Assembly (NCBI GenBank): GCA_963921795.1
Contig: OY997642.1
Coordinates: forward strand, 35,967,340 to 36,031,339
DNA from: Nannobrachium achirus
Lineage: Eukaryota > Chordata > Actinopteri > Myctophiformes > Myctophidae
Length of the DNA: 64,000 bases
Direction of reading: 5' to 3'
The notes under the pieces are model-generated. The model was not told the origin of the DNA. It saw only the letters and a program-made list of their open reading frames with translations, and made no database searches. The position numbers and the translations under genes were made by a program. Numbering within the stretch: position 1 is the stretch's first letter; every line of letters begins with the position of its first letter. Of this stretch, positions 1,281 to 63,613 are shown one piece after another.

Positions 1281-4200
1281 GTGAGACCCGCAGGACAGGA
1301 TCTGTCTTTGACATTGTATGCTGTGCATGGAATATCAGCTTTTTCCATTGTCAGAATTCAGAGAACACTCATATTCACACGGCTACTATTTTGCTCTAAT
1401 GTTATACTTGTGGGTTGGGGCCCCTGAGTATGACGGAAGAGCAAAATGGCCACTGTGTGAATATGGACAATTGTGATTGTTGCTGATGTTTGAAAATGTC
1501 CAGTCAGGCGTTGATGCTGTTTTCAGAGGTTCTAGGAAATAATCAATATGAGATTTAATATGGTGGTTTTCTTTAACTTTCCAAAATCTTCCAAAATAGC
1601 AAAAATAGCAGATCTAGAAGGAAAAAAACGTAGAAAGTTGAAATACGGAGATAAGAGTCTTCTGCCCGACAGCAGCGATATGAGATATGGGATGAGGTAG
1701 TACAGCAGGCTGACATCATGTCTCCCACTTGGCTCCAGCAACAGTCTCAGCAACAGCAGAGAATCCCCACAGACCTGGGCTGCTCTCTGGATGCCAACAA
1801 ACAGCAGAGGCAGCTCATCGCTGAGCTAGAGAACAAAAACAGGTCAGTGTTGACTGCATTTGTGATACTGAGTGCCTCTGTTCGTCTTTCCACCATCCTC
1901 TTGATTTAAAAAAAAAATCTCACTGTTTGACTTTTGAAAAAGGGGACACCCACTCAGACAAATTGATTCGCATCGAAGGCTCACTTTATTGAATGTTATT
2001 GATGTTGCCTCAATATTGATTGATGTTGGAAGGCAGCGATTCAGGAGTCCTGAATTGGTGTTGGCTAGTTCGCACTCTCACATTGCATTGCATTGCATTG
2101 CATTGATGTTACCATAATTACCATAGTTTTCATGTATTTCAGACCTGTCGTTTTGAAATTGAGATCAGATTTGGTTGGGGGGGAAACAAATAGTTTTACT
2201 TTCCCTAACAAGTATTATGCGGAGTAAACGGTATACAGTAAATGATTGTATAGATCTAGAAAGGCGACACAAGTTAATATTTTAAATGATTAACACTTTT
2301 TAAATCCTCAATGGTGTTTAGTTGCTGCTCCATTGGTGGAGAGTATGTGAAACAGCCTTGTACAATGTGCGTGTGTGTGTGTGTGTGTGTGTGTGTGTGT
2401 GTGTGTGTGTGTACGTGCGTGCGCGTACGTGCGTGTGTGTGCCACAGAGAGATCTTGCAGGAGATCCAGCGACTGCGGCAGCAGCATGAGCAGGCCTCCC
2501 AGCCTCCACCTGACAAGGGCCAGCAGAACCCCACCCTGTTGGCTGAACTCCGACTTCTCAGGTAAAATCTGGATGATATGAATTAGAGCAGTGGTTCTCA
2601 ATCTTCTTAATTCCAACGACCCCAAGTCACAGACTCCCATTTGTGTTAGTTTACAGTAAGTGGGGCAGGTTGGGCAGGCAGCAGTGGCTCAGGTGGTAGA
2701 GAGGTCGCTTGGGAACTGGAAGGTTCCCAGTTCAATCCCGAATGTCAACCCAAACTCCATGGTAGTGATTGTTCTAGAACTCCATATATGGATCTGAATG
2801 ATTTGTTCATGCCTGATGCCATGACGACACATTGATGTTAGACAACACACTCCATATTTGGGTGTAGCTGCATTGGTAAGTCCTCATGGTAAATGCTAAA
2901 TGGTTCAGCTATTTTTATCCAAGCTCTTTACATAAATTGTGCATTACATTAAGCCATATTCATACACCGATGGCAGAGGAAACTGCACCAAAGCACCAAC
3001 CTGCACATCGGGAGCAATTAGGGGTTCAGCGTCTTGCTCAAGACACTTCAACACTAACTTGGGGGGAGCCTGGGATCGAACTGGGTACCTCACTGTTCCC
3101 ATTCGACCTCTCTACTGGCCACTGACTCTAGCCCTGAGCCACTACTGCCCCTTATGGCTGAGTCATAGTGACATAGGATTTTGGAGAAGTTCATTCATTG
3201 ATGCTACTAGGTGCACTGTATCATTATACCGCATTTCTTTTGCTCTCTGTCAGGCAACGTAAAGATGAGCTGGAGCAAAGAATGTCTGCTCTGCAGGAGA
3301 GTCGCAGAGAACTCATGGTACAGCTGGAGCAACTTATGATGCTACTCAAGGTACCGTATGCTGTTTCATCTCCACTACTGTTTCCACCACAGCAGTGGTG
3401 GAAAAATAATTACAAAATATTGTAATTAGTGAAAAGAAAAGATGAGTGTTAAAATGTGTTCATTTACTTCCTTCTGTAGTTTTTGAGATTTTAGCGATAA
3501 AAAAAGAAAGAAAAAAGGCATACAAGTGGCTAAATATGGCTTTTTAAATACAATAAGCCGGTGATTTCTTTATTACTATATTTACATTAGCACTACTAGC
3601 CCCCATAAGTCACATCTGCCCATGAAAGACTGCGGTGCATCTTGGGAATGGGCTCATTGTGCCTAAAAAGACTATTTTGCCATACGCATGCCCCCACCCA
3701 CTGAAATCATAGCAGACATATACAAGCTCACAATGCGTGATGCATTGTGAGCTTGTAGATCGGCTATTTTCAAATAGTCTAAATGTATACGGCTGGAATG
3801 TATATTTTGTCATAATAATCAAAATCTGCAAAGTAATCAGTAACTGAAGTTTTCAAATAATTGTGGTGGAGTAAAAGTACAATATTTGCCTCTGAGATGT
3901 AGTGGAGTAGAAGCAAAAGTACTTTACAATACAAACCCCAAAATCAATCCTCCAGTTCTAGGCAACACAGAAGAGGGGGAACTTTTTTTTTCCACACAAC
4001 TCCTCTAAGTTGTTAATGACATAGTTCAATATTGAAAATGGGTGGTCTTCCCCTTTAAGTAAATAAATGTACTTGGTTACTTTCCACAACTGCTACAGTA
4101 ACAGCTCCCTCTTCATGATCAAGCACTACAGATAGATGTGAACTACCAAAAATGGCCATTAGAGGGCACACTTCTTCAACAAGAAGACATAGACCAACCA

Positions 4201-7200
4201 AGGAGATGGCTTGTTAATAAAAGTCTTCTATCTCACACATCATTTCTGCCATTATTACACAACAGCTATTGGTCAGCTTTTTAAAGCATCCAATACATGT
4301 CTTTCTAGACTCCACACAGGAGTAGACTTGGGGTTGTGCTCCATTTCAACATGTAAAGACATGTGTAAGAGGGATAATCTCCAGAGTGAGATTATCTTTA
4401 GCAGTCAATAACATCATGGGGGCTGTGACTACTTACTGGTTTAAGTGGTAAGAACGTCAATCTGATCAATCCTGGAAACCATTCAGTTAAAAAAAAAAAA
4501 AAAAAAAAAAGAAGTAGAAACTCTCTTGATCTAATTAGCCTAAAAGGATCAATACCAAGCCATTAAATATGCATGAGGAAGATACATGCTCATCACAGTC
4601 TGGAGTCTGGATTGTTAGAAATGCCCACATGTAGGGTTTTGTCATTTCATGAGTGATAAAAGAACCTTGGCCCTTTTTTGACAGGAGGAAGAACGGAAAC
4701 AAGCTGTAAGTTTGGCAAGCCTGGGCCCAAAGTCAAACAATCTTAAAAACACAGACTCATTGCATGTGTACATAAGAGCATTATGTTTGTGTTTGTTTTT
4801 AATTGTGGCAGTTCTCTGATATCTAGTAATTTAGGAAAGTATGTGGCACTAATAGCATGTACCGTATTTGAGCAATATTGACATAATATAATAAATAAGC
4901 CTAATGACCTAACAAAAATAAACTTTGGCATGTTCATGAGGTTTATTTCTCACTAAGACAGTTTATTATTTTATAATTGGATTACTGATCATTAGGCAAG
5001 GTAAGCTTCTTAGCAGTCCGTAGATTAGTTTAAGGTTTTTGGCTGAAAATATTTCAGTCCATATTCCACTGTATGGGAATGTGACAAATTATCACCTGGG
5101 CATTCATGATTAACCAACCTTGAGCAACACTGAATGCCCAGCCGATACACACATTCTCATCCCATTTTGTGGCCAAGGCACATCAGTGGACAACTGTGCA
5201 CAACTGTATCCTAGCGAAAATAGCCAATCTACTCTTCTTGCGCACAGTACTAAATGCTGAATTAGTAAATAAAAAAATATGTTATAACCTTTTCTTTATT
5301 TTTATATATTGCAATAACAACGTAGTCACAAAAATCACAAGGCACACCTAGACTTGACTCACAGCACGACAGTATGACTCGGCACACCGTGGAGGAAGCA
5401 CTGCTCAGTTATTATGTTGATCCCTAACAATTTGAAGCGATGAGTTGCTGTGAAGCCAATGGCTACAGATTAACCTCTTTACAGTATATGAGCGACTTTT
5501 CTGTTTTCGCTCTACATAAAATATCTTCTTGAAAATAGCAGATTGACAAGCTCACAATGCGGCGCAACAATCTGCTATTGTCTGTAAAGGTTTTCCCAGA
5601 ATACGGATTTTACTGTAATGAAAAGCATTATTTATTTTAGTTTATTTGAAAAGTAACAACCAGCTGAGAATATGTCACAAAAAAGTCCAAGACTTATTTT
5701 CATTGTGGTCTCCTTACAGGTAACAAATACATGTCGTAACACATGAGTGACATGTACAATAAATAAAACAGAAATATTTCAAGACAAGAAACATTAAATT
5801 ACCTTTAAAACAACGCAGATTTAGTTAATGAACTCTCAGCTGCTGCCTCCTCCACCAGTTGGTTTCTCCACAGAACAACTCCAACAAGGTGAGGGAAAAT
5901 GCTACACATTTTGTCTCTAAAACTCTTCCATGTGTTTCAGACTCAAGGGACTGGTTCTCCACGCTCCTCACCCAGCCACACGGCCAGCCGACCCATCCCC
6001 ACACCTATACACTCAGAGTCTGCTGGCACAACCCCGACTCACACACCGACACCTCAGGACTCACTCATGGGCGTGGGAGGTGACGTGCAGGAGGCCTTTG
6101 CTCACGGTAACACAGTGAGACATAGTATTGCAGTGGTTCTCAACCTTTTCAGGCATTGACCCCCAAAATAATCATATTTTAACTGGGGATCCCCCACCCT
6201 GACGAGCACTAAGAGTTGAGGCATTACATTTTGTATAACATTCTATTGTGAAAATAGCAGATCTACATGCTCACAATGCCTAGCGTTGCGAGTCGTTGTG
6301 AGCATGTAGATCGGCTATATTCACAATTTCTGCCTCTAGTATTTGACAATTTGGCCAATGTTTAATTTATCATTTTAGTGGTATTAAAAAGTCTTTACAT
6401 GTGTCACTTTAGAAATGTACAGACACCCTGTATACACTTAAAGGTGTATTCAGTGATAATGAAAGTGGCTGGGGGTCATCTTGTCCCTTTCTGGCCTTAG
6501 AGCGTGGAAATGTTTCGTTTTTTATTGATTTTTACACCATTATAATGTTCTCGTTTTGATCATTAGACCCAATCACTGAATATCGGTAGGCCTACGTCTC
6601 CAGCTTCAGGATATGTATGATACTGATTTACTACCAGACTGTGGCATTTTATGAGTTCAGTAGTTTACAATCTAGGCATTTAGCAGACGTTCTTAATTCA
6701 GAGCGACTGTGGTTCACAAAACTTTTATTTTGACTATCATAGCTAAACATCATAACATAACTACGGTCATACTCTACCCTGATTGGTCAAGGACAGGCTG
6801 GCCACCTCTGAAAACCGAATCTAGCTATGCTCGTATCACAGGCCATGGTGGAAGTCCTTATGGTCCTTATATGGTCAGCATACATTCTAGTGAGGAGAAT
6901 GAATGGAAAATGTACCAATTATATTTTTATTTGAATGAAATACAATCATTGAATATACCTTTAAACTTTATGTTGGTTTGTTTACTGTTGAGTGAGAAAA
7001 CAATGTTGCACATTAAGTTAATCATCTGGCGACCCTCCAAAATAATTTGGGGACCCCCCTGGGGGTCCCGACCTACATGTTGAGAGACCACTGGAGTAAT
7101 GCACAGTACGTCACACCAGTGGTTCACAACCTTTTCTGGATCAGGGCCCACTTGAAAATCTCGCGGCCCACCCATCTGACCACTGTTGCATACTCCACTT

Positions 7201-63539: not shown

Positions 63540-63579
63540 AAAATAAAATTACTCAAAGATTTGCACACATTTTCACGAC

Positions 63580-63613
63580 CGCGCTGTGAGCTTGTATATC
63601 TGCTATTTTTCAA
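63580..63613. repeat. recurrent hairpin, copy Q, right half
   Basis: CGCGCTGTGAGCTTGTATAT then CTGCTATTTTTC, with the left arm deleted; flanking CACACATTTTCACGAC matches the sequence before hairpin K at 37400. Confidence 0.75.

Follow-up and report, generated by a model that had tools for sequence, protein, structure and literature searches.

A near-palindromic hairpin unit carried by unrelated transposon families in the Nannobrachium achirus genome

How does one hairpin come to lie inside transposons whose ends are quite different? The question is raised by a 64-kb stretch of the Nannobrachium achirus genome, positions 35,967,340-36,031,339 of the chromosome-scale contig C5 in a 1.66-Gb assembly, referred to below as the window. 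An earlier note had listed there about 17 sites of a palindrome, a 20-base arm with its mirror, inside miniature inverted-repeat transposable elements (MITEs), and had proposed either a tiny foldback transposon homing to other transposons or a module exchanged between families. The analysis described here revealed that unrelated families carry the unit, that its borders can be sharp, that each of the best-sampled families has a version of its own and that pairing is kept by matched changes. In our reading (probability about one half) the unit is a palindromic core module of non-autonomous DNA transposons, which each family would have acquired about once and the host would have carried along since, with the hairpin aiding amplification in cis; we do not read it as a unit that currently homes by itself. 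The sequence sampled comprised the window, 24 kb of loci L001-L008 and about 263 kb of further genome letters; family names such as F0, F1 and F2 are labels coined in this analysis.

The hairpin in the window and in the genome

A blastn search with a 67-bp unit located 18 places at 24 bits or more in the window, against none when one block-shuffled version was searched. These places account for 15 of the 17 sites listed earlier, 60778/61711 being taken as one site, and include two additional degenerate ones at 842 and 1604. The exact 20-base arm was found in the assembly 67,315 times on the forward and 66,978 times on the reverse strand (134,293 in all, a count in which an intact palindrome may be included twice), and the arm read backwards was found on neither. 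The listed sites are therefore real, although some are incomplete or degraded: only half a hairpin is present at 32188 and at 63580, 60778/61711 is split, 32862 is a remnant and 20628 is degenerate. The copies in the window are given below, with the strand where one was assigned.

3709-3768: hairpin core with the left arm degenerate and the right arm intact, within a CAGTGGTGG-ended element
5534-5580: shortened hairpin (blastn)
6242-6330: 89-bp unit, F5 version with the matched change ACATGC/GCATGT, within a CAGTGGTTCTCAACC-ended element
20628-20688: very degenerate hairpin, recognised by eye only and not among the blastn places at 24 bits
23551-23602: hairpin with a shortened tip, F2 host (blastn)
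24689-24920, + strand: complete F0 element with terminal inverted repeat (TIR) CGTCG.. and 4-bp duplication ATAT; tip-deleted hairpin at 24771-24812
32188-32218: left half of a hairpin, F2 host (blastn)
32869-32895: 27-nt hairpin remnant (arms at 32869/32876) in a CAGTGGTTCCCAAAC element (hAT-C)
34415-34476: hairpin with the left arm altered (blastn)
37094-37182: 89-bp unit, F3 version, first of two nearby hairpins
37424-37476: second F3 hairpin, tip shortened (blastn)
45420-45646, + strand: complete F0 element whose flanking 4 bases differ, with the 89-bp unit at 45488-45576, inside a hAT-like element at 45311-45854
51764-51852: 89-bp unit inside a hAT-C element
59800-59852: F3-type hairpin, tip shortened (blastn)
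60782-60828: left part of a split F3 hairpin, its two parts about 0.9 kb apart (blastn)
61712-61731: right arm of the split F3 hairpin (blastn)
63090-63154: F3-type hairpin (blastn)
63581-63607: right half of an F3-type hairpin (blastn)

The two halves of the split F3 hairpin are separated by about 0.9 kb of other sequence (60829-61711).

Hairpins in which both inner arms match exactly, in the form with an A.G mismatch (one of two common forms), numbered 6,870 and 6,862 on the two strands, with 0 and 0 in the control. In 20 fixed-place 10-kb loci, 15 exact arms were present in 196,472 known bases, that is 7.6 per 100 kb against the 8.1 expected from the assembly-wide count. Recognisable hairpins were more numerous: 25 such loci held 117 places (246,472 known bases in all); extrapolated to the genome, this gives about 0.79 million, a rough figure because a near-identical duplication of about 3 kb (L034:1974-7085, offset about 3,049 bp) includes several hairpins and makes them count twice. 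The hairpin is probably present several hundred thousand times in the genome and, by the same rough estimate at up to 67 bp per place, covers at most about 3% of it. No match to the exact pattern was found in viral contigs. A bacterial contig (L029, from a collection of genome contigs) had a single arm without a hairpin and was set aside, about 0.5 chance matches being expected in 257 Gb.

The unit is a near-palindrome of about 89 bp composed of two 43-bp arms and a 3-nt loop. Its inner 32-bp conserved arm reads AATAGC(A/C)GATCTACAAGCTCACAACGC(C/G)TCGC and is followed by the loop and the arm's complement. Among 43 distinct copies of standard length, Watson-Crick pairs were formed at the 32 inner positions in 49-100% of copies, the lowest value belonging to a position with an A.G or C.T mismatch in about half of them. 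Beyond AATAGC, the flanks remained complementary above the control level over about 11 additional bases, past which complementarity was at background (75 copies with a mixed-copy control; 43 copies). These outer bases are host-specific in sequence and mostly still paired, for example AAACTAGTGAA in F0 and AATAAGCAAAA in F1; the GATCTACAAGC stretch is nearly invariant across families. The outer 9-11 bases, where an independent foldback transposon would have its terminal bases, are the least conserved portion of the unit. The earlier description of a conserved stem with a variable loop was accordingly right about the stem; the loop as then defined is mostly stem, since it is largely palindromic and the true loop is 3 nt flanked by complementary arms.

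Pairing was further analyzed in an 89-column alignment of 33 copies (1,419 cells). True partners paired in 86% of cells, whereas partners slid by 1-3 columns paired in 32-44%. Two-sided changes occupied 145 cells against a shuffled mean of 65.8 (0/500 shuffles as high), which confirms the matched changes in the stem that had been noticed before.

Host elements and the sharing of the unit

Several hosts have the features of hAT-type MITEs: an 8-bp duplication, short CAG-type inverted ends and no coding capacity. Exact 8-bp duplications were present at L016 (CAGGGGTCTTCAAC), L004 (CAGGGGTTTTCAAACG) and L033 (CAGGGACATGCTTGG, with an F0 copy inside it), and around two hosts at L026, CAGGGGCGTCAC (two hairpins in 456 bp) and TAGGGCTGTCACAAT; the shuffled-pair control for these four loci gave 0.0 per 143 at a score of at least 17. 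A structural scan located further exact 8-bp duplications at L024 (CAGTGGTTCCCAAAC) and L014. The hairpin was present in five of the six complete hAT-like elements from that scan, in one of the five only by way of a nested F0.

F0 is a different kind of host. The element ending in ATATCGTCG in the earlier note proved to be a real family with the TIR CGTCGTTGTCGGG; 11 distinct elements were located by their ends, three of them sharing one nested insertion, and all 11 contain the hairpin. In place of the 8-bp duplication of hAT elements F0 has one of 4 bp, exact in 8 of the 11 elements (four with ATAT, one each with CTAT and AGAT, and two with ATTT that share one nested insertion); the duplication differs in two others and the start is mutated in one. 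Hosts with quite different ends, hAT families with 8-bp duplications and F0 with 4-bp ones, are thus confirmed. The TTAACCACTTGAACC of the earlier note seems not to be a free element end, being an inner segment of a hAT element with CAGGGGTCTTCAAC ends in L007 and L016. The same hAT end is present in 8/8 further relatives (L035-L042, one end mutated), six of which have a TTAACC-like start, and the TTAA-flanked F2 segment sits inside hAT. Nesting was also observed for F0 within hAT (L033 and window 45311-45854). Some F3 elements carry two hairpins (L026:2623-3078, about 80 bp from each end, and L011:256-578). A scan for ends and duplications at six further exact-arm places gave TTAA in one, a doubtful result in one and nothing in four.

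Many copies share the hairpin only; in L007, for example, 124 hairpin-only partners stood against 13 extended ones among the matches listed. Identity of 53 full-length cores was 0.751 between and 0.843 within families, with one cluster chaining F2 and F3 through nesting, and extended alignments within families were 78.8% identical as against that 0.843 for cores. The stretch AAACTAGTGAA-core-TTCACTACTT is common to F0 and hAT-C, with sharp borders and no visible similarity outside the 89-bp unit. The borders read ...GATTT on the left and TTGTGCG on the right in F0, and ...GGGACCC and CTTAAA in hAT-C, where individual copies vary. In another case the hairpin of F8, a family with F0-like ends, recurs together with about 30-40 bp of flank within a different, hAT-like frame in F1. 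As the transferred segment varies in length, recombination or nesting fits better than a fixed mobile unit. Comparison of F0 with F8 revealed ends kept at 21/23 and 25/27 positions and arms at 16/20 and 17/20, with spacers at 64-66% against 61% for shuffled letters. Sharing across unrelated elements (hAT families and F0) and exchange of a module between families, as the earlier note had proposed, are both supported by these data, namely the sharp-bordered unit in F0 and a hAT family and the F8-like inner sequence in F1.

Searches for short-gap copies produced 1,495 + 1,448 matches for F0 (palindromic matches being counted on both strands) and 184 + 150 for F2, and 100 listed ones were examined for each. 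Among these matches listed the short copies are mostly tip deletions with hairpin remnants left, the deletions often lying between short direct repeats (GATC..GATC, TA..TA), and in a few the outer stems enclose almost nothing. Because the search patterns for F0 and F2 contain part of the outer stem, a copy from which the whole unit had been lost would have escaped them. A search with hAT-C flanks lying outside the whole unit gave 10 short copies (6 + 4), nine with hairpin remnants and one with only AAAC. No clear empty site, that is a host without the whole unit, was found in the short-gap searches of F0, F2 and hAT-C. At eight near-empty F2 places the host had retained both sides in every case and most places differ from one another elsewhere, one changed flank being common to L038 and L041; we therefore read them as mostly separate deletions. 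Inspection by eye revealed no duplication at the unit borders in F0, hAT-C, F2, F4 and F5.

In a tree of 41 cores bearing eight host labels, 9 label changes were required, the minimum being 7 and the shuffled mean 26.1 (0/200 shuffles as low). F0, F3 and F5 each form a single group, and F1, F2, F4, F8 and hAT-C do not; the base of the tree is poorly settled, there being too few columns. Sampled copies thus cluster by host family and not across hosts. From these sequences we read the well-sampled families as having had about one probable founding event each, followed by amplification with the host.

Among the copies without relatives in the sample, which include L017_6590, L027_1864 was considered in the genome as a candidate standalone hairpin. 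It was rejected when its flank turned out to be repeated: with 40 of 1,353 candidates scored, 27 of these 40 matched at 99-100% over 85-87 bases. The repeat (L027:1640-2080) is young and contained the hairpin in 5/5 fetched places (L049-L053). L049 also has an inverted duplication of the repeat's left part.

Explanations for the shared hairpin

According to our preferred reading, each family would have acquired the unit about once, whether through recombination, through template switching or through a nested insertion that was later trimmed; thereafter the unit would have multiplied with its host under the host's own transposase. The DNA-level hairpin with its fixed GATCTACAAGC is a putative cis-acting aid to amplification, which might operate as a protein-binding site or as an extruded hairpin acting at replication. 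Much of the matched change probably originates from replication errors templated by the hairpin. The near-fixed GATCTACAAGC, together with arms that are more alike than spacers, indicates that something beyond pairing holds the sequence. A broader version, which we advance only tentatively, is that of a general amplification module: transposons of different superfamilies would independently have captured the same sequence-specific palindrome because a host factor or the hairpin raises copy number, much as with the cores of short interspersed nuclear elements (SINEs). Several observations weigh against the preferred reading. In the 33-copy alignment 199 of the 1,419 cells are unpaired and 49 more hold one-sided G.U changes; of the 43 copies, 10 had been left out of that alignment (nine because their arms were broken or shifted, one as a near-duplicate), a choice that works in favour of pairing. 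Local similarity of 64-76% between some F0 and F8 flanks (blastn) indicates that spacer turnover is incomplete. The sixth hAT-like element of the structural scan, L020:92-282, has no hairpin, and the reversed-duplication control of that scan gave 7 against the 6 observed, a control that we think poor because long inverted ends satisfy it by themselves, although our argument does not rest on that scan alone. Covariation alone, moreover, is no proof of function, since template switching can produce matched changes in the absence of selection.

This last point is the strength of the most serious competitor, to which we give a rather low probability. It supposes that a few founders carried the palindrome, which spread by nesting and co-amplification and was kept palindromic by template switching, with no role of its own. 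Nesting is indeed common here (F0 in hAT at L033 and 45311-45854, the TTAACC segment in hAT), the frequency of tip deletions shows the palindrome to be handled in vivo as a hairpin, and, according to PMC8794818, perfect stems and matched changes can arise by template switching. A neutral passenger leaves unexplained that the sequence itself is held, GATCTACAAGC being nearly invariant across families, that F0 and F8 resemble each other more in their arms than in their spacers, and that the outer 11 bases vary freely yet pair. Descent of all hosts, or of all hAT hosts, from one hairpin-bearing ancestor, with spacers replaced and ends and hairpin kept, is unlikely. It would account for the F0 and F8 elements, which keep ends and arms while their spacers are hardly alignable, for similar CAGNGG ends in many hAT hosts and for the lack of clear empty sites in the hAT-C search. 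Against it stand F0, which with its 4-bp duplication and CGTCG ends is not hAT and yet has the full 89-bp unit in common with a hAT family, and the cores, still 0.751 identical between families when most flanks have no partner.

An independent foldback transposon, with its own transposase and a preference for landing in other transposons, is very unlikely, and the homing proposed in the earlier note found no support in tests limited to a few families and some 345 kb of DNA. The unit does have defined borders, is almost entirely an inverted repeat and is common to unrelated hosts. Precedents exist: human MADE1 is a fully palindromic MITE, and foldback elements are small and consist almost entirely of inverted repeat. 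MADE1-like MITEs and foldback elements each transpose as a unit that has its own ends and its own duplication; in the present unit, by contrast, conservation is lowest at the outer ends and no border duplication was seen in the five families inspected by eye. Moreover, 9 of the 10 short hAT-C copies are remnants rather than empty sites, copies cluster by host, and the F8 to F1 transfer brings extra flank. A role as RNA also looks less likely, and selection as an RNA hairpin, be it a small-RNA precursor or a structured RNA, is the least probable of these explanations. The stem is long and folding with DNA parameters is strong (z from -9.7 to -18.0 for 4 copies). Against it, Rfam models gave no match at the gathering score in the window, and G.U and A.C mispairs numbered 35 and 24 in the 21 oriented copies of the 43, with no clear strand preference. 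Matched transversions also occur without intermediates, such as U-A to A-U at pair 30.

Related systems and other features of the window

Among the papers listed by searches of the open PubMed Central (PMC) literature we recognised no report of one palindrome common to DNA transposons of different superfamilies. The closest case is that of the CMITEs of Acropora corals; the closest concept is found in the conserved SINE domains, among them the V domain in MER6. The unit described here is, like the CMITE region, an internal region common to MITE families with different ends. As far as the relevant passages of PMC2872659 go, CMITE families all have TTAA duplications and piggyBac-like ends and are estimated at about 1,600 copies, and a role in transposition is suggested by their authors; those passages do not describe the region as a palindrome. 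The present unit differs in being palindromic, shared by hAT and a family with 4-bp duplications, and hundreds of times more numerous (PMC2872659); its hosts have 8-bp or 4-bp duplications other than TTAA, not the TTAA duplication and piggyBac-type CCYT ends of CMITEs proper. The highly conserved domains of SINEs are, in the parts of PMC6887750 that treat them, short cores with different heads and tails and a role given as unknown, and the V domain once moved into the MITE MER6. They likewise represent one short core common to otherwise different elements, but belong to RNA-copied elements and are not palindromes as described there, whereas the hosts here are cut-and-paste DNA transposons (PMC6887750). 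Template switching at replication, in the sections of PMC8794818 concerned with it, can make and maintain hairpins and matched changes on both arms without selection; the cases given there are RNA genes and not a module shared by transposons, and sequence conservation across families is left unexplained (PMC8794818).

We class the unit with known MITE core domains, as one in the form of a palindrome that spans superfamilies; the coral and SINE precedents differ from it in form, in scale or in the superfamilies covered. It has long been asked how MITEs attain their huge copy numbers by cut-and-paste, and a fixed palindrome in unrelated, very abundant families is a concrete candidate for a cis element. 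The natural set of matched changes could separate selection on the hairpin from template-switch repair. Repeat annotation that merged families through the shared hairpin would go wrong.

Apart from the hairpins, the window contains an open frame of 435 aa at 35219-36526 with an RVT_1 domain (E 5e-29) and a C-terminal ALKBH8_N domain (E 9e-14), which we read as a fragment of a retrotransposon without long terminal repeats. Exon-like stretches at 1200-1300 and 2450-2570 read like dystrobrevin, and the window may cover introns of that gene. Tandem and scattered repeats containing CCATATATGG occupy 46850-48456 (periods 60, 65 and 112), and short tandem arrays with units of 63 bp and 30 bp are located at 39056-39233 and 62060-62179, respectively.

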